Assembly: GCA_000619965.1 (NCBI GenBank)
Contig: JHVD01000008.1
Span: 62,001 to 126,000, forward strand
Direction of reading: 5' to 3'
Length of the DNA stretch: 64,000 nucleotides
DNA from: Propionibacteriaceae bacterium P6A17
Lineage (GTDB): Bacteria > Actinomycetota > Actinomycetes > Propionibacteriales > Propionibacteriaceae
Positions 9,498 to 57,993 of this stretch are shown here, in pieces (position 1 is the first letter of the stretch; each line of letters opens with the position of its first letter). The position numbers were made by a program, and so were the translations under genes. Under the pieces are notes generated by a model that was not told where the DNA came from, made no database searches, and saw only the letters and a list, made by a program, of their open reading frames with translations.

Positions 9498-10196
9498 GTG
9501 GGACAACGCAAGCAGCCTCCGCAGCAGCCGCCGCCGGTGCAGAAGCTGCGCCTCCGATACGCCAAGCGGGGCGCGGCCAGGTTCACGTCGCACCGCGACT
9601 TCGGGCGGGCGCTCGAGCGCGCGCTGCGGCGGGCGGACGTGCCGATGGCGTACTCGTCGGGCTTCAACCCCCACCCGCGCATCTCCTATGCGAACGCGGC
9701 GCCCACGTCGGCCGCCTCCGAAGCGGAATACGTGGAGCTCGGGCTCGCCCGGCGCTGCGACCCGGCGAAGGTGATCGCGGCACTCAACGAGTCCTTGCCC
9801 ACCGGGTTCGTCGTGCTCGACGCGGCGGACGCCGTCACGGACGGGCTCGGAGAGCTGCTGCAGGCCTCCGACTGGGTGGTTGCGCTGGCAGGCGTCGACG
9901 AGGCGCGGTTGCGGGCCGCCGTCGGGCAGTTCCTCGCGCTCGACGAGCTGCCCGTCGAGCGCATGACCAAGAACGGCCTGCGCAGCTTCGACGCGCGCGG
10001 CGCGGTGCTCTCGTGCGCCGTCGAGCCGGAGGGCCTGCGGGTGCGCATCCTGCACACGGTCCCGCTCGTCCGCCCCGACGACGTCGTCACCGCCCTGCGG
10101 ACGCTGGACCCGCAGCTCACCGCGCAACCCCTCCTGACCCGTCTCGAGCAGGGCCCGCTCGTCGACGGCGAGATCGGTGACCCACTGCGCCCCTGA
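9498..10196 (+). CDS. TIGR03936/DUF2344 radical-SAM-associated protein
   Basis: A 232-aa protein of the DUF2344 family that in many bacteria is next to, or fused with, the TIGR03960 radical SAM protein and precedes rne. Recognisable features are LRLRYAKRGAARFTSHRD and MAYSSGFNPHPRISYA near the N-terminus. Function is unknown; it is presumed to work with the radical SAM protein at 3563. The GTG at 9498 is chosen because a -10-like TAGAGT sits 8 nt before it. A terminator overlaps the stop codon. Confidence 0.85.
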   Translation: MGQRKQPPQQPPPVQKLRLRYAKRGAARFTSHRDFGRALERALRRADVPMAYSSGFNPHPRISYANAAPTSAASEAEYVELGLARRCDPAKVIAALNESLPTGFVVLDAADAVTDGLGELLQASDWVVALAGVDEARLRAAVGQFLALDELPVERMTKNGLRSFDARGAVLSCAVEPEGLRVRILHTVPLVRPDDVVTALRTLDPQLTAQPLLTRLEQGPLVDGEIGDPLRP

Positions 10197-52135: not shown

Positions 52136-52993
52136 TCAGCGCGCGGGCGCTGCCACGTCGGTGGTGACGCGCGCCATCCCCGATGCCCGACGCAGCACCA
52201 CCAGCAACGGCCTGCCCAAGATGAGCAGCGCCAGCGTCGTGGCAATCGCCCGGCCGGTGTCCCATCCGCCCGTCGAGGTGAGCAGGGTGAACCAGCCGAA
52301 GGCCAGCAGGTTCTGCGTGATCGGGGCCCCCGGCACGTAGTCCAAGGAGCCCGCGGGCACGCCCTCGACGCCGATGCCCGTGATCGTTGGCCAGAACCAC
52401 AGGTTCATGAGCAGGCCGTACACGTAGGCGCTGATGATGCCGAGGCCGATCAGCATCGCCAGCTCGGCTCGGCCGCGCACGCGCCGGGGCAGCAGCCCTG
52501 CGGCGAGTCCCACCCAGCCCGCACACATCATCTGGAAGGGCAGCCACGGCCCGACGCCCGCCGTCAACAGCGCCGAGGCGAACAGCGAAGTGTGCCCGAG
52601 CATGTAGCCGAATCCGGGGCCGAACACGCGTCCGGAGAGGATCAGCAGGAAGAAGACGCTCTCGAAGCCTGCGGTGCCCGCGCCCAGCGCCGGGCGGATC
52701 ACGGCATTGATCGCGGAGAGCACCCCCAGCATGGCAAGTGCCTTCGCGTCCAGCCCGCCGTCGGTGATCTGGGCGAGCACCAGCAGGAGGATCAGTGGCA
52801 GCATCGCCCCGAGGATGAACGGGGCGTCGGCCTGATGGTCGGGGGCGACATCCACCGCAGGCAGGATCAGCGGCCAGCCCAGCGCGAACAGCCCGAAGAA
52901 GGATGAAACGGCGATGAGCAGCCACGAACGCCACCCGAGCCGGACTCCGACGATGGGTGCTGGGATGTCGATCCGGTCATCCACGCGCGGCAT
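52136..52993 (-). CDS. ECF transporter substrate-binding (S) component, probably for cobalamin
   Basis: A 285-aa protein with about seven hydrophobic segments and the ECF S-component look (GTAGFESVFFLLILSGRVFG and GLLMNLWFWP). It is the last gene of a riboswitch-led operon, so cobalamin or another corrinoid is the likely substrate; that comes from context, since S components are too diverse to assign by eye. It starts inside the AA' gene (17-bp overlap). Confidence 0.8.
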   Translation of the reverse strand: MPRVDDRIDIPAPIVGVRLGWRSWLLIAVSSFFGLFALGWPLILPAVDVAPDHQADAPFILGAMLPLILLLVLAQITDGGLDAKALAMLGVLSAINAVIRPALGAGTAGFESVFFLLILSGRVFGPGFGYMLGHTSLFASALLTAGVGPWLPFQMMCAGWVGLAAGLLPRRVRGRAELAMLIGLGIISAYVYGLLMNLWFWPTITGIGVEGVPAGSLDYVPGAPITQNLLAFGWFTLLTSTGGWDTGRAIATTLALLILGRPLLVVLRRASGMARVTTDVAAPAR

Positions 52994-54542
52994 TGCAGAA
53001 CTCCTCCACCGTGAGCAGCGGGACGGGACTGGTCACCTTCGACACCTGCGTCGCCAGCAACTGGCTGGAGGCGAGGACGTCGCGGGCCGGGCCGTCGGAG
53101 ACCACCTCCCCCTCGGCCATGACGACCACCCGGTGACAGGTCGTCGCCGCCATCTCGACGTCGTGGGTGGCCACCAGCACCGCGCGCCCCGCCTGCGCCA
53201 TGTCGTCGATGATGCGGGCGAGCGTCGCCTTGGCCTGATAGTCGAGGCCACGTGTGGGCTCGTCGAGCAGCACGACGTCGGGGTTGCCCACCAGCTCGAC
53301 GGCCAGCACGACGGCGATCTTCTGCCCCTCGGAGAGGTCGCGCGGATGCGAGGCCATGTCGATGGTGGGCACGAGCGAGCGCAGCAGCGCCGCGGTCGTG
53401 CCGGGGGCGAGATCCGCCGCGGCGTCGCCGGCCCTGCATTCGGCCTCCACCGAGGTGAGGTAGAGCAGGTCCGAGGCGGTCTGCGGCACGAGGGAGATAC
53501 GACGGTCGCTGACGACCCGCCCTGCCGACTTGGTGCCGGCGCCTTGGATGGCCCACATGAGGCTCGACTTGCCGCAGCCATTGCGGCCCATCAGCGCGGT
53601 GACCTCCCCGCGATGCAGGGTGAGGTCCACGTCGCGCACGGCGACCACGCCGGGATATTCGACGACGATGCCCGTCGCCTCGAGCACCGGGTCGCCGGCC
53701 GTCGGGGCGGGCGGCAGCGGCGGAGGACTCTGCGTCCAGTCTCGACGCTGGGGCGCGGCCAGTCGTCGACCCTCACGAATCGTCAGCGGCAGCGGCTCCC
53801 ATCCTTGGCGCACCCCGAGTTCGACCAGCGGAGGCTTGATGGGGGCCTGGCGCAGAATCTGACGCACCGGGCCGTGGTGGACCGTCGCGTCGGGCTCCAC
53901 CAACAGCATGCTGTCGGCGAACTCGATCACTCGCTCCATGCGGTGCTCGGCCAGCAACACGGTGGTGCCGAGGTCGCGGACGAGCCTGGAGATCAACGCC
54001 AGCACCTCCTCTGCCGCGATCGGATCAAGGGCAGACGTGGGTTCGTCCAGTACCAACACCTTTGGTGCGCTGGCAATGACGCTCCCGATGGCCACCCGCT
54101 GCTGCTGCCCGCCGGAGAGGGTGCGCAGCGGGCGCCGTCGCAACTCCGCGATGCCGAGCAGATCGAGGGTCTCCTCGACGCGGCGGCGCATCTCCGCCTC
54201 GTCCACGCCGAGCTGCTCCATCGAGTAGGCGAGCTCCTCCTCGACGATGTCGGTCACGAATCCGGCCAGCGGGTCCTGACCGACGTATCCCACCGTCGTG
54301 GCGAGTTCGCGGGTGGGCAGGGTCGTGGTCTCGACGCCGTCGATGGTGATGCGCCCGGTGCGGGTGCCGCCGGTGAATCGGGGGACGAGATTGTTGACGC
54401 AGCCCAGCAACGTCGACTTGCCGGAGCCAGTGGGACCGATCACGAGGCACAGCTCGCCCTCCTCGATCTCGAAGGTCGCGGAGTCGAGCCGCAGGAGATC
54501 GCTGCTGGGATAGCGCAGAGTGACATCCTCGAAGCGGATCAT
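52977..54542 (-). CDS. ECF transporter energising ATPase, fused AA' type
   Basis: A 521-aa protein with two ABC ATPase domains in one chain, corresponding to EcfA and EcfA'. Domain 1: Walker A GPTGSGKST (about 35-43), signature LSGGQQQR, Walker B VLVLDEPTSALD. Domain 2: GRNGCGKSS, LSEGQKIAV, VVLLDEPTRGLD. The second signature is LSEGQ rather than LSGGQ. The ATG overlaps the T-component stop (ATGA). Confidence 0.93.
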   Translation of the reverse strand: MIRFEDVTLRYPSSDLLRLDSATFEIEEGELCLVIGPTGSGKSTLLGCVNNLVPRFTGGTRTGRITIDGVETTTLPTRELATTVGYVGQDPLAGFVTDIVEEELAYSMEQLGVDEAEMRRRVEETLDLLGIAELRRRPLRTLSGGQQQRVAIGSVIASAPKVLVLDEPTSALDPIAAEEVLALISRLVRDLGTTVLLAEHRMERVIEFADSMLLVEPDATVHHGPVRQILRQAPIKPPLVELGVRQGWEPLPLTIREGRRLAAPQRRDWTQSPPPLPPAPTAGDPVLEATGIVVEYPGVVAVRDVDLTLHRGEVTALMGRNGCGKSSLMWAIQGAGTKSAGRVVSDRRISLVPQTASDLLYLTSVEAECRAGDAAADLAPGTTAALLRSLVPTIDMASHPRDLSEGQKIAVVLAVELVGNPDVVLLDEPTRGLDYQAKATLARIIDDMAQAGRAVLVATHDVEMAATTCHRVVVMAEGEVVSDGPARDVLASSQLLATQVSKVTSPVPLLTVEEFCNAARG

Positions 54543-55693
54543 GAGAGTCCCTCCTCGTTGTTGGTGGACGTCGACAACACCGGTGGCGGCGTCAGGAAAG
54601 CGGGAAGTGCGCCGATCAGCAGAGCCAGCGCGAGCGGACCCGTCACCACCGGCCATTGGTGCTGGGGAATCGACGGGTCGAGCACTGACGGATCGGGCCC
54701 ATTGGCGACGAGGTGGACGAGGTACGCGGGCAGCAGCCCACACACGAGCACCACCGTTTCGGGCAGGCGCCACCGGTCGCGACGATACCTCGTGCGTTGT
54801 ACGTGCCGGCCGATGATGCCCATGGCGACGACGATCCCTGCGACGCCCATGATCAGCAGACCGACCTCGAGTACGTTGACCCGCCCGAGGTGGGGGCCGA
54901 TGCCGGGTTGCGCAAGCAGGAAGTAGGACCACACGGACAGCACGATGATGCCGCCCATACCCAGCAGCGTCGACGCGGCCCGCTCCGCGCCCGACGCCTG
55001 CCCGCCACGGCCGTAGCCCCGGACCTCCATGCTGGCGGCCAGTGCGATGGAGCGGTCGAGCGCGTCGGACAGGACGGGCACGATGATGGTCTCGACGACG
55101 CCGAGCCGTCGTCGCCGGGATTTCGGCGTCGTTTGACCGCCGCGCAGCCTCCGCACACGCATGACGCGCACCAGCGACTCACCGAGCTGTGGGAACACGC
55201 TGAACGACACCACGAGGATCGTGCCCAGCTCATACATCGCCGCCGGCAGTGCGGCCAGCAGTCGTTTGGGGTTGACGAGCGAGTTTGCCGCTCCCAGGCA
55301 GATGATCATCGTCGCCAGCCGCAGGCCGTCGTACAGGCCGTAGAGCAGCGACTCCAACGAGACCGGGCCCAGTAGGCGGATGCCGGCCACCCAGCTCGGC
55401 AAGGGCACCGTCGGCAGATGCAGGAGCACGGTGGGCCCATCTCCGCCGCCGAAGACGATCCTGAATGCCACGCGCAGCAAGACGATGAAGGCGCCCAGGA
55501 TCAGGTAGAGCTTGAATCCCTTCGCCCAAGGGTTGTCGCCGCAGCGCGACACCGTCACCAGGCACACGACGGCGATGATTCCGGCGAGCAGGAGAGGGTT
55601 GGTGGTGCCGCTGGCCATGACGGCGAGCCCGATCGCCCACAGCCACCACACGTAGGGATGGAGCGGTCGCGGCAGGAAATAGCGTCGGATCAT
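54539..55693 (-). CDS. ECF transporter transmembrane (T) component
   Basis: A 384-aa EcfT-like membrane protein that couples the ATPases to the S component. It has several hydrophobic segments and two cytoplasmic coupling-helix motifs of the A-R-G type: VRVMRVRRLRGGQ and SMEVRGYGRGG. ATG 55693 is chosen because it overlaps the preceding stop as ATGA; the in-frame GTG at 55708 is an alternative. Confidence 0.88.
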   Translation of the reverse strand: MIRRYFLPRPLHPYVWWLWAIGLAVMASGTTNPLLLAGIIAVVCLVTVSRCGDNPWAKGFKLYLILGAFIVLLRVAFRIVFGGGDGPTVLLHLPTVPLPSWVAGIRLLGPVSLESLLYGLYDGLRLATMIICLGAANSLVNPKRLLAALPAAMYELGTILVVSFSVFPQLGESLVRVMRVRRLRGGQTTPKSRRRRLGVVETIIVPVLSDALDRSIALAASMEVRGYGRGGQASGAERAASTLLGMGGIIVLSVWSYFLLAQPGIGPHLGRVNVLEVGLLIMGVAGIVVAMGIIGRHVQRTRYRRDRWRLPETVVLVCGLLPAYLVHLVANGPDPSVLDPSIPQHQWPVVTGPLALALLIGALPAFLTPPPVLSTSTNNEEGLS

Positions 55694-56688
55694 CGGCGGC
55701 GGCGCCACCAGACAACGCCGGCCGTCGCCGCCACACCCGCGACGGCCCCGACGCCGATCAGGGTGCCACTTGGGTCATCGGCGACCAGCTCTGCGGGCAC
55801 TGGTGGGGCAGACACTGCTGAGGGAGATGGGCCGGAGGCTGCCGAAGCTGTGGTCCCCTCGTCGACCGCGCTGGGAGCGCTGGTCGCCGACTGTGACGGC
55901 CCAGCATCGGAGGCGAGCGCTGACGCCGGGTCCCCGGGCGAGGCCGAAGCGGTCGAATCGGGGGTGGCCGTCGGACCCGCAGCGTCGGCGTGGGTGTCCC
56001 CACGCGGACGATCTGGATTCCGAGAAGGGCTCGGTGCCGCCGCCGTCGTCGACGGGGCCGGCTGCCGGGTGCGGGCTGGGCGCGTGCCCTCCGACTTGGG
56101 CGAGGCAGTCGGCGCGCTGCCCGTGGGGGTGCTCTCGGCCGGGACCGTCGGGGTGCGCACCGGGTGGGAGGGCGAGACCCGAGGCCTCGGGTTCTCGTGC
56201 TCATCCTTGTTGAAGGAGAACGACCAGCCCTCATACCCCCCGGGGATGACGGTGCGGTTTCGGATGCCGAACTGGGAGAACGTCCATTGGCCGCCGTTGG
56301 GGCTGTGCCAGTACGACCAGAACGCCTCCGCGGGCGGGGTCTGCACGCAGCGCTCGCGGAACCCCGGCCGGCCAGCGACGTCGATGTCCTGGTCGGGAGC
56401 GGGCTTCCCGTCGATGCGGCAGACGAAGTCCTCTCCGTCCTTGACGGTGCCCTGCAGACCGAAACCGGCCGCCACCATGGCGTCGTAGCCGGTCGAATCG
56501 GCGCCGAGACCGCTCACGCAGCGGACGACGGTGCCGCCGCCCAACTGTTGGAAATCGACGACGACCGTCACCGAGATCTCGTCCGAGCAATGACCGTCGC
56601 GCACCGAAGTCTCGGCGCGCGCCGTGGGCGAGGTCAGGGTGAGGAGGAGGCCGCCGAGCAGGATTGCTGCCAGGCGTCGCACGGTCAC
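55690..56688 (-). CDS. Membrane-anchored DUF4430-like surface protein
   Basis: A 332-aa protein: signal peptide (VRRLAAILLGGLLLTLTSPT, then ARA), a folded domain (about 30-190) with CSDEISVTVVVDFQQLGGG, AFWSYWHSPNGGQWTFSQFG and EGWSFSFN, a long Pro/Ser/Thr/Ala linker, and a C-terminal helix ending in WWRRRR. The domain resembles DUF4430/transcobalamin-like modules that bind corrinoids. It could capture B12 outside the cell and hand it to the ECF S component. The start is GTG 56688 (overlapping the previous stop as GTGA) or GTG 56682, which has GGGAG 7 nt upstream. Confidence 0.75.
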   Translation of the reverse strand: MTVRRLAAILLGGLLLTLTSPTARAETSVRDGHCSDEISVTVVVDFQQLGGGTVVRCVSGLGADSTGYDAMVAAGFGLQGTVKDGEDFVCRIDGKPAPDQDIDVAGRPGFRERCVQTPPAEAFWSYWHSPNGGQWTFSQFGIRNRTVIPGGYEGWSFSFNKDEHENPRPRVSPSHPVRTPTVPAESTPTGSAPTASPKSEGTRPARTRQPAPSTTAAAPSPSRNPDRPRGDTHADAAGPTATPDSTASASPGDPASALASDAGPSQSATSAPSAVDEGTTASAASGPSPSAVSAPPVPAELVADDPSGTLIGVGAVAGVAATAGVVWWRRRR

Positions 56689-57173
56689 ACTCCCGTGGGA
56701 GGAAGGCCGGCGGTGATGCCAGCGGACGCCGTCGGCTGCGGCGAGGCGAGTGGGTCCGTGCGAGGAGCGACCGCTTGCACGTTCCAGTCGGGCTCGAAGC
56801 TCCAGGCGACGACGCTGCCCGCTGCGGGGGCGAGCACGTCGGCCCCCTGCTGCGCGAGCACCCAGTCGCCGTCGGAGGACTTCGTCCACAGCGCGTACCA
56901 CTGGTTGCCGGAGGTGGTGTGGCCGTCGACGGTGGTGAAGAAGCCGTTCGAGCCCTCGAGGGCGATGCCTGCGGAGCGGGTCGCGTCCGCGGCGGTGGCG
57001 AAGTCGGAGGCGCATCCTCCGTTGGTCGAGTCCTCGTGCTGCACGTGTACCCAGACCTTGCCCTGCGCGACACAGTCGGCGGGGGTCACGGGTTCGGCGT
57101 GAGCGGGGAGACCGAGGCCGATCGCAAGCGCGACGATGACCCCGGTAGCCAGCGTGGGGAGAGTTTTCGCCAT
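56685..57173 (-). CDS. Secreted DUF4430-like protein
   Basis: A 162-aa protein with a signal peptide (MAKTLPTLATGVIVALAIGL, then GLPAHA) and one domain similar to that of the next gene: QWYALWTKSSDGDWVLAQQG aligns with the WSYWHSPNGGQWTFSQFG stretch, and VAWSFEPDW with EGWSFSFN. A cysteine pair (PADC and GGCASDF) probably forms a disulfide. The tail ends in LPPTGV, reminiscent of but not an intact sortase signal since no membrane helix follows. It is the first gene after the riboswitch. Confidence 0.72.
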   Translation of the reverse strand: MAKTLPTLATGVIVALAIGLGLPAHAEPVTPADCVAQGKVWVHVQHEDSTNGGCASDFATAADATRSAGIALEGSNGFFTTVDGHTTSGNQWYALWTKSSDGDWVLAQQGADVLAPAAGSVVAWSFEPDWNVQAVAPRTDPLASPQPTASAGITAGLPPTGV

Positions 57174-57195
57174 GAGGCTGCCTTTCTGCATGTGT

Positions 57196-57274
57196 GGAGC
57201 CGAAGGTCCGACTTGCCCGTTGGGCATCACGGTTGCGCGACAGTGTCGGTTTCCCACCGAACTTCCCCGGCTCG
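57196..57274 (-). ncRNA. Cobalamin riboswitch aptamer
   Basis: On the minus strand the conserved core reads GGGGAAG, CGGTGGGAAACCG, CACTGTCGCGCAAC, CGTGA, then a GCCC/GGGC stem and AGTCGGA, matching the cobalamin element order GGGAA - CGGTGxxAAxCCG - CTGxCxCGCAACxGTGA - AGTCxGA. TAGAGT (57282-57287 on the complement) is a fitting -10. The ATG of the first DUF4430-like gene is about 23 nt downstream, and its AAAGG site lies in between, suggesting control of translation. Confidence 0.78.
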
Positions 57275-57342
57275 GGCGATCACTCTACCGTCCCCGACCC
57301 CGCTCTGCGAGAATGGAGCGATCCGACGGAAAGGACGGCGAC

Positions 57343-57993
57343 GTGCCCAATGCAGTGATGTTCGATCTCGACGGCACCCTCACCGACACCGAGGGAGTCT
57401 GGGACGAGGTGCGACGTCGTCTCGCGGCGGAGGCGGGGCTTGAATGGCGCGAGGAGTACTCGCGCGTGATGATGGGGATGTCGACGCCCGAGTGGAGCCG
57501 ATACCTCGTCGAGGAGGTGGGGCTGCCCGTCGTGCCGGAAGAGGCCGCCCGGATGACGGTGCAGGGCATGGTCGACCACTACCTGTCCGGCGCACAACCC
57601 ATGCCGGGCGCCGCGGATGCGGTGCGGCGCATGGCGTCGAGGTATCCCGTCGCGATCGTCTCGTCGTCGCCCGCGCTGCTGATCGAGACGGCCGCGCAGG
57701 TCCTGGACATCGGTGACGCTCTGGCCGCGATCGTATCGACGGAGGAGTGTGATCGCGGCAAGCCCGCGCCCGACGGGTATCTCCTGGCCTGCACGCGGCT
57801 CGGGGTGCGGCCGGGTGACGCGGTCGCCGTCGAGGACTCGCAGGCGGGGATCACCTCCGCGCTCAACGCAGGGTTGACCGTCGTGGCCTGTCCGAGCACG
57901 TTTCGTCGCCCGCCGGAGTCGATCCTGGAACGCACGACGGTGGTGGGCTCGCTCGATGAGCTGACCCTCGAGCTGGTCGAGGGCCTTTCCTGA
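57343..57993 (+). CDS. HAD-superfamily phosphatase
   Basis: A 216-aa HAD subfamily IA hydrolase (beta-phosphoglucomutase/phosphoglycolate-phosphatase-like). Nucleophile D8 and acid/base D10 in VMFDLDGTLTDTE, motif II VSSSPALL, motif III Lys in CDRGKPAPDGYL, motif IV VAVEDSQAGITSA. GTG 57343 follows AAAGGA; ATG 57313 is the alternative. The substrate is unknown. It is divergent from the riboswitch operon. Confidence 0.9.
   Translation: MPNAVMFDLDGTLTDTEGVWDEVRRRLAAEAGLEWREEYSRVMMGMSTPEWSRYLVEEVGLPVVPEEAARMTVQGMVDHYLSGAQPMPGAADAVRRMASRYPVAIVSSSPALLIETAAQVLDIGDALAAIVSTEECDRGKPAPDGYLLACTRLGVRPGDAVAVEDSQAGITSALNAGLTVVACPSTFRRPPESILERTTVVGSLDELTLELVEGLS

Follow-up and report, generated by a model that had tools for sequence, protein, structure and literature searches.

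The window analyzed here, a 64,000-nt stretch of Propionibacteriaceae bacterium P6A17 (contig JHVD01000008.1, positions 62,001 to 126,000), carries on its minus strand between positions 57290 and 52136 a short cobalamin aptamer followed by the genes g1 and g2 and those for EcfT, the fused double ATPase EcfAA′ and the S component of an energy-coupling factor (ECF) transporter. The g1 gene (56685..57173(−)) encodes a secreted beta-domain protein of 162 aa whose signal peptide was recognized by inspection, and g2 (55690..56682(−), GTG start) a second one of 330 aa with a Pro-rich linker, a C-terminal membrane helix and RRRR. EcfT (54539..55693(−), 384 aa) matches the CbiQ family PF02361 (8.9e-12), EcfAA′ (52977..54542(−), 521 aa) matches ABC_tran PF00005 in two stretches (6.5e-49) and the ECF_ATPase models at ∼1e-78, under their equivalog cut-offs, and the S component (52136..52993(−), 285 aa) was assigned by its family alignment and by PF12822 (8e-11, over cut-off). 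EcfT, two ATPase domains and an S component, the parts by which an ECF system is recognized, are all present in the operon, as a first-pass annotation of this DNA had proposed. The same annotation described the genes as linked by overlapping starts and stops, which holds for g2/EcfT (4 nt), EcfT/EcfAA′ (4 nt) and EcfAA′/S (17 nt), but not for g1 and g2, which lie 2 nt apart.

A cobalamin-type aptamer had been placed at 57196-57274, and a sensitive Rfam scan of 57050-57450 recovered it at 57273-57197(−) as a short cobalamin (corrinoid) riboswitch aptamer of the AdoCbl family RF01482 (clan CL00101; 45.7 bits, E 2.1e-7 in 401 bases). With default (gathering) scores, Rfam returned no match in the window, because 45.7 bits falls short of the 50 set for this family. 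RF00174, whose absence above threshold the first-pass annotation had named as speaking against its claim, likewise had no match in the window at its gathering score (31.5 bits). The element is nevertheless held to be real, because a covariance model, R1, detects it at E 3.8e-19 when run on the whole genome (the sequence itself being one of the 38 of the model) and has other sites in the same genome. R1 was built from 38 leaders, namely 31 operon leaders including that of the window and 7 from riboswitches behind the S component, and 7 of the 13 consensus pairs of these aligned aptamers show compensatory change, giving a conserved covarying core. Some relatives do pass the curated scores: the leader of the same operon in L040 (L plus a number denotes a fetched or scanned locus) reaches 51.5 bits for RF01482, as one of 12 loci scanned, and L076 (39.8 bits), L047 (39.2 bits) and L114 (35.3 bits, at the farther of two upstream sites) exceed the gathering score of RF00174 among 6 loci scanned. 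The window aptamer is real, though formally under the curated Rfam threshold.

Several relatives carry further riboswitches. Strong canonical RF00174 elements are found in Micromonospora locus L114 directly behind S (9922-10139(+), 102.4 bits) and divergent upstream (1138-1341(−), 86.9 bits), and in several loci of Tessaracoccus (L031-L036, L039, L040 and L042) a second riboswitch directly follows S and mostly precedes a secreted toroid protein.

Conservation analysis showed that the S component has matches in 51 of 60 genomes searched, and that EcfT, EcfAA′ and S occur together in 38 of 40 fetched loci; the other two, L059 and L060, have S without the rest, with an R1 match ∼2.7 kb upstream of S. 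By pattern, an aptamer core lies upstream in 33 of those 38, which is 33 of the 36 uncut operons (L037 and L069 are incomplete). Loci L062, L065 and L067, the uncut operons in which no core was detected, have beta protein, EcfT, EcfAA′ and S and belong to one genus with large genomes, in which L063 and L068 do have the riboswitch. A profile search of genome contigs that started from the S alignment yielded at least 581 relatives, of which the best 80 were kept, in Tessaracoccus, Nocardioides, Amycolatopsis, Kribbella, Actinomadura, Streptomyces, Micromonospora and others. R1 has 95 matches at E≤0.05 on these 80 loci, and 72 of them could be judged (4 have no EcfT match and 4 too little upstream sequence). 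A riboswitch is located upstream of EcfT on the same strand in 71 of the 72, at a distance of 179 to 6230 nt (median 2606), counted from the farthest where several matches lie upstream. Between riboswitch and EcfT, a beta domain is encoded in 67 of the 72 loci and a toroid in 52, all 52 of which have both, by profiles whose iteration drew on the same set of loci; among the 72, five (L071, L072, L074, L075, L133) may share genomes with the training leaders of R1.

The first-pass annotation called g1 and g2 two secreted DUF4430-like proteins. The two are paralogues (BLASTP 0.007), and a first-pass beta-domain profile of 98 rows from which g1 was excluded detects g1 at 5.2e-6 (for a search space of 5000), whereas the iterated profile, with g1 included and g2 as its seed, finds it at 3e-19 and detects the domain beside most of these importers. 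The likeness to DUF4430 is weak by single-sequence comparison (g1 E 0.056, g2 no match, 5 of 54 beta-domain members at E≤0.01), but stood in the comparison of profiles, where hhalign aligned the beta family end to end with eight DUF4430 proteins (E 1.4e-5, probability 80; control with the S component, probability 0.2). The comparison set came from other classes of the phylum, with 8 of 14 loci aligned and 6, in a frame without the domain, left out. In a survey of 198 genomes from across the phylum, DUF4430 exceeded its cut-off in 34, and the genome of the window (G000) was not among these. Searched against the Protein Data Bank (PDB), the beta-domain profile matched only four antibody chains (best E 0.06).

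In many relatives the operon also encodes a secreted alpha/alpha-toroid protein, which in several Tessaracoccus lies right behind S with its own riboswitch. No toroid protein is encoded in the window, where the operon has beta proteins only; in G000, a single secreted-type protein of 529 aa on contig C18 accounts for the one toroid match and for a third beta match. The beta domain is thus fused to a toroid in G000, as it is in L047 and L040. The toroid profile matches squalene-hopene cyclases in the PDB at 2.5e-19 summed over repeats (best single stretch 0.0017), and neither transcobalamin nor intrinsic factor appears among the names of its 29 PDB matches; phmmer with the toroid+beta protein gave five chance-like PDB matches (best E 0.06). 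A toroid joined to an SLBB domain has been described as the architecture that transcobalamin shares with its relatives in bacteria (PMC1796856, in the portions of the text used here), and intrinsic factor and transcobalamin are built from a toroid and a DUF4430/SLBB-type domain. Both parts also meet NCBIfam families that bear Streptomyces locus-tag names without a function: g2 matches SCO2322_fam (NF040672) at 2e-6 (28.2 bits, under the cut-off of 85), and the toroid+beta protein matches SCO2321_fam at 1.9e-5 and SCO2322_fam at 1.1e-4, far under the curated cut-offs of 300 and 85 bits. In our literature search, SCO2322 was not found in any paper. The toroid proteins of L033, L034, L035, L037, L039, L040, L042 and L070 share an unknown C-terminal module (NGRxWRTxCEPYS...RCRTxI...FNNLTY).

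The toroid+beta gene on C18 (found by R1 and the profiles) has a TTG start and is preceded by a riboswitch of its own (R1 E 1.5e-17; RF00174 27.4 bits, under gathering); riboswitch and gene lie in locus L155 at 8123-6351(−). On contig C9 (L164), R1 has two matches, at 1.3e-9 and 6e-4, which are located at the 5′ end of cobI/cbiL, with an overlap of ∼11 nt between the match and the longest frame, and 33 nt before cbiM; Rfam scores the cobI/cbiL site at 26.3 bits, under gathering. The genes there form a corrinoid-synthesis cluster in which CbiM, CbiQ, CbiD, CobJ/CbiH, CbiE, CobM/CbiF, CobI/CbiL, CobQ, CbiB and precorrin-8X methylmutase are over the NCBIfam cut-off and CbiG is under it. Because of this cluster with its CbiM/CbiQ pair, the host probably makes corrinoids and takes up cobalt by a separate system, and also keeps the importer in the window. 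Two B12-binding-domain proteins are encoded in the genome. FecCD permeases have four matches, three of them over cut-off, on C8, C1 and C4, where R1 has no match and no corrinoid link was seen. Weaker R1 matches in G000 include L165 on C19 (E 0.015) and three more at E 0.02-0.93.

In known cobalamin riboswitches, kissing of loops L5 and L13 stabilizes P13 and thereby a hairpin at the ribosome-binding site (PMC10653944), and the kissing loop has also been described for actinobacterial switches (PMC11260477), in the parts of both papers that we draw on. Behind the core, 33 of 34 leaders (all but L063) match a loose L13-type hairpin pattern. In 28 tested operon leaders outside the clade of the window, the hairpin precedes the likely start of the first gene, and its distance behind the core is 49-84 nt in 27 of them and 125 nt in L064. 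Matched L5-L13 pairs have a mean energy of −7.15 kcal/mol compared to −5.63 kcal/mol for mismatched ones, and 0 of 2000 shuffles, which leave relatedness in, were as good (n = 33 leaders: 32 of the 34 plus that of C18, with L063 and L068 left out).

In the window, loop L5 of the aptamer (UCGCGCAA, 57233..57240(−)), whose sequence complements that of the L13-type loops in the same leaders, and the Shine-Dalgarno-like AGAAAGG of g1 (57181..57187(−), 7 nt before the ATG) were assigned by sequence. The P13/L13-type hairpin AUCG-UCGCGCUUG-CGAU (57121..57137(−)) lies within the signal-peptide codons of g1, 36 nt after the A of the ATG, and matches L5 over 4 bp inside the coding sequence. Its position and loop type are the same in L031, L032 and L038, 93-99 nt behind the core in all four, and one A-U stem pair is replaced by G-C in L038. 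Among 198 genomes of the family, the motif is found 101-107 nt behind a riboswitch core in exactly the four of this clade; four further genomes have the motif but lack a core within 250 nt, and two genomes match when the pattern is reversed. In the window, hairpins of at least 4 bp whose loop starts with TCGCG arise by chance at ∼0.075 per 230 nt, a figure that does not apply to the looser pattern. The middle hairpin codon is NTT in each case and keeps its T ending while the residue varies (Leu, Leu, Phe and Ile in the window, L031, L032 and L038). In EcfT, EcfAA′ and S of the same loci, CTT is used for 4 of 175 Leu in the window and 1 of 173 Leu in L031, and TTT for 0 of 36 Phe in L032; ATT in L038 (10 of 52 Ile) is not rare. 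In L038 (G001; 6357-6035(−)), where g1 and g2 are lost, a 39-codon open frame with the L13-type hairpin stands between riboswitch and EcfT, and core and EcfT are 308 nt apart.

Both g1 (LPPTGV-stop) and the C18 protein (LPSTGV-stop) end in an LPxTG motif without a hydrophobic helix. The classical sortase-anchor layout of LPXTG, hydrophobic helix and basic tail is absent from g1, where the stop follows one residue past LPPTG (56685-56705). Across the window and 120 loci, 12 beta- or toroid-holding frames end LPxTG-x-stop, whereas most beta proteins end in a membrane helix. The LPxTGx-stop DNA pattern has 17 matches in G000 compared to 1 for the reversed pattern; all 17 (L166-L182), the g1 ending among them, read GLPxTGx without membrane helix or basic tail, and 14 lie in long frames. 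A scan of nine of these frames and the C18 protein found GH10, PhoX and 5′-nucleotidase families. Of 36 genomes of the genus, 29 have the PGLPxTGx-stop pattern, but none of 24 others of the order does (171 matches compared to 3 for the control), and G000 encodes two sortase-family proteins. No description of such an ending was found in our literature search, and it is possible that the tail-less LPxTG-x ending is an undescribed sorting signal.

A weak candidate −10 element, TAGAGT (57282..57287(−)), lies directly before the aptamer, and its TA..GT is kept in the alignment of the window, L031, L032 and L038. A consensus promoter and terminator scan found nothing, which is uninformative in G+C-rich DNA. 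A HAD-type hydrolase gene (57136-57993(+)) diverges from the riboswitch, the two starting near each other.

The aptamer, the hairpin, the gene families and the conserved operon layout are apparent from the DNA itself, and comparative genomics strongly supports corrinoid-controlled corrinoid import with its own extracellular proteins. We consider it very probable that the window operon serves ligand-repressed capture and import of corrinoids (vitamin B12-type compounds). We infer the following course, including the identity of the ligand, its repressing effect, the kissing-loop switch, binding by beta and toroid domains, the hand-over and the transport of corrinoids, whether complete or incomplete. 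At high cellular levels, corrinoid would bind the leader aptamer, whereupon L5 would pair with the L13-type hairpin, in this clade within the first codons of g1. Such pairing would close the stretch that holds the Shine-Dalgarno sequence and the AUG and would reduce the translation of g1 and of the genes coupled to it. Under corrinoid shortage, g1 and g2 would be made and exported and, together with the toroid+beta protein from the second riboswitch locus, may catch corrinoids outside the membrane and pass them to the S component, with EcfT and the fused EcfAA′ ATPase powering import. The first-pass annotation had read the whole operon as a corrinoid import system with its own extracellular binding proteins. 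Its observation is confirmed and its interpretation partly supported: the function is favored by our analysis, but part of the predicted capture machinery is encoded elsewhere, at C18.

A number of results weigh against corrinoid capture and import. No upstream aptamer was found by pattern or R1 in L062, L065 and L067, none by R1 in L107, and the beta domain was not found in L093, L099, L100, L138 and L143. L038 keeps riboswitch, EcfT, EcfAA′ and S without g1 and g2, which are therefore not always required. The profile of the S component (37 sequences) has no PDB chain at E≤1, and the PDB reportedly contains ECF-CbrT (PMC5997447); this search therefore gives no link to the proven CbrT. The link between the beta family and DUF4430 is a pairwise profile match and not a structural one, and the site before cbiM was not reported by Rfam at E≤0.5. 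One of the FecCD permeases could be BtuC, and with a corrinoid-synthesis cluster in the genome the need for uptake is not obvious.

Complete B12 in particular is not an obvious need of a host with synthesis genes including CbiB and CobQ. Instead of ready B12, the operon might thus import incomplete corrinoids or foreign cobamides (cobinamide, lower-ligand variants) that are then remodelled, a sub-case of corrinoid import to which we give the smaller share of the likelihood; ECF-CbrT moves both cobalamin and cobinamide (PMC5997447, in the part cited), and no sequence feature was found that separates remodelling from B12 import. Import of cobalt or another metal was also considered, since cobalamin riboswitches control cobalt transporters (PMC3766115, in the sections used) and EcfT belongs to the CbiQ Pfam family. 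However, the S component is of the PF12822 vitamin type and not CbiM, and secreted beta-domain proteins stand beside the importer in 67 of the 72 judged loci. We judge a cobalt importer very improbable, because a separate CbiM/CbiQ system adjoins the cob genes. It is also improbable, though less remote than metal import, that g1 and g2 are surface proteins without a part in corrinoid capture that are carried along in the operon, as their weak single-sequence DUF4430 match and their loss in L038 might suggest: the domain is kept between riboswitch and EcfT in those same 67 loci, and it is fused to a toroid in L047, L040 and G000.

The hairpin in the g1 codons could be the shadow of a conserved signal-peptide sequence, with regulation by sequestration of the Shine-Dalgarno region alone. 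The arrangement of L13 in coding sequence is known from only four genomes, which share a common descent, ViennaRNA prefers to pair these bases in a shifted register, and the L5-L13 match in the window is short, all of which tells against a role of this hairpin in the switch. In contrast, the NTT codon keeps its T ending despite the change of residue, such codons being rare nearby except for ATT in L038, the hairpin is retained in L038 in a short open frame after the loss of g1 and g2, and the motif is found near a riboswitch core in exactly 4 of the 198 family genomes. We therefore regard a mere shadow as unlikely, without dismissing it. Still tentative, and in our estimate somewhat short of an even chance, is the combined proposal that the switch of this clade uses the regulated gene as its expression platform, with the L13 partner in the signal-peptide codons of the first capture protein, the start site enclosed between aptamer and coding sequence and the stretch kept as a short open reading frame (ORF) in one relative after loss of the protein, and that the tail-less LPxTG-x ending is an undescribed sorting signal of the genus by which capture proteins are retained.

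ECF vitamin systems were reportedly classed by Rodionov et al. in 2009. The first-pass annotation had contrasted the operon with ECF systems that have an S component only, but the concept is not new (PMC1796856, PMC5301498; these and the papers below are compared on the portions of their text used here). Secreted transcobalamin-type SLBB proteins in CbiO/CbiQ operons were proposed as B12 scavengers by Burroughs et al. (2007, PMC1796856), and these operons likewise hold secreted toroid and beta proteins, often with a second SLBB paralogue, beside EcfA/EcfT-type genes. They were described in low-GC Gram-positives, planctomycetes and euryarchaea, in bacteria that usually lack key B12 synthesis enzymes, whereas the system described here belongs to actinobacteria and to a host with a synthesis cluster, and differs in its fused EcfAA′, its cobalamin riboswitches and the hairpin in coding sequence. 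Riboswitch-preceded actinobacterial ECF cobalamin transporters have already been proposed: ECF modules behind cobalamin/AdoCbl riboswitches were so interpreted in freshwater actinobacteria of the acI group (2017, PMC5301498). Those modules were likewise found with RF00174 and RF01482, and the likeness is drawn at the level of the module; acI strains lack cobalamin synthesis, and the text used mentions no secreted capture proteins. The window system joins these two published arrangements, the SLBB/CbiO/CbiQ operons of 2007 and the acI modules of 2017.

Another ECF transporter, ECF-CbrT of Lactobacillus delbrueckii (eLife 2018, PMC5997447), has an S component shown by experiment to serve cobalamin and cobinamide; in contrast to the dedicated module in the window, CbrT is one of eight S components predicted on one common ECF module, and secreted capture proteins are not mentioned in the part of the paper cited. 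The BtuG surface lipoproteins of Bacteroides also catch B12 at the surface for an importer, but with the outer-membrane BtuB system and in a different phylum (PMC6143338, PMC10404256). The B12 riboswitches of Mycobacterium tuberculosis metE and ppe2, which have upstream ORFs, likewise use an L5-L13 kissing loop and translational control, and in ppe2 the predicted L13 shares a hairpin with the region where a short ORF starts (PMC11260477), whereas in the window L13 lies 36 nt inside the signal-peptide gene of the regulated operon. In the consulted portions of PMC5301498, PMC3766115, PMC1796856, PMC5997447, PMC2667541, PMC11260477, PMC10653944 and PMC9600662, we found no description of secreted toroid/beta proteins with an ECF module in actinobacteria, and an earlier mention in Rodionov et al. 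2009 is possible. We see least precedent for an L13 hairpin within coding sequence and for an LPxTG ending that has no tail.

Extracellular corrinoid capture by actinobacteria is little described in the literature we found. The family pairs intrinsic-factor-like secreted proteins with a dedicated, riboswitch-linked ECF importer, and if our interpretation is true, it offers a testable route for such capture in Nocardioides, Amycolatopsis, Streptomyces, Micromonospora and Tessaracoccus. It would also suggest a function for NCBI families that are named by locus tags only, and the hairpin within the g1 codons would be a clean case of a riboswitch platform that overlaps the gene it controls. For the host itself, it would show a B12 maker that scavenges too.

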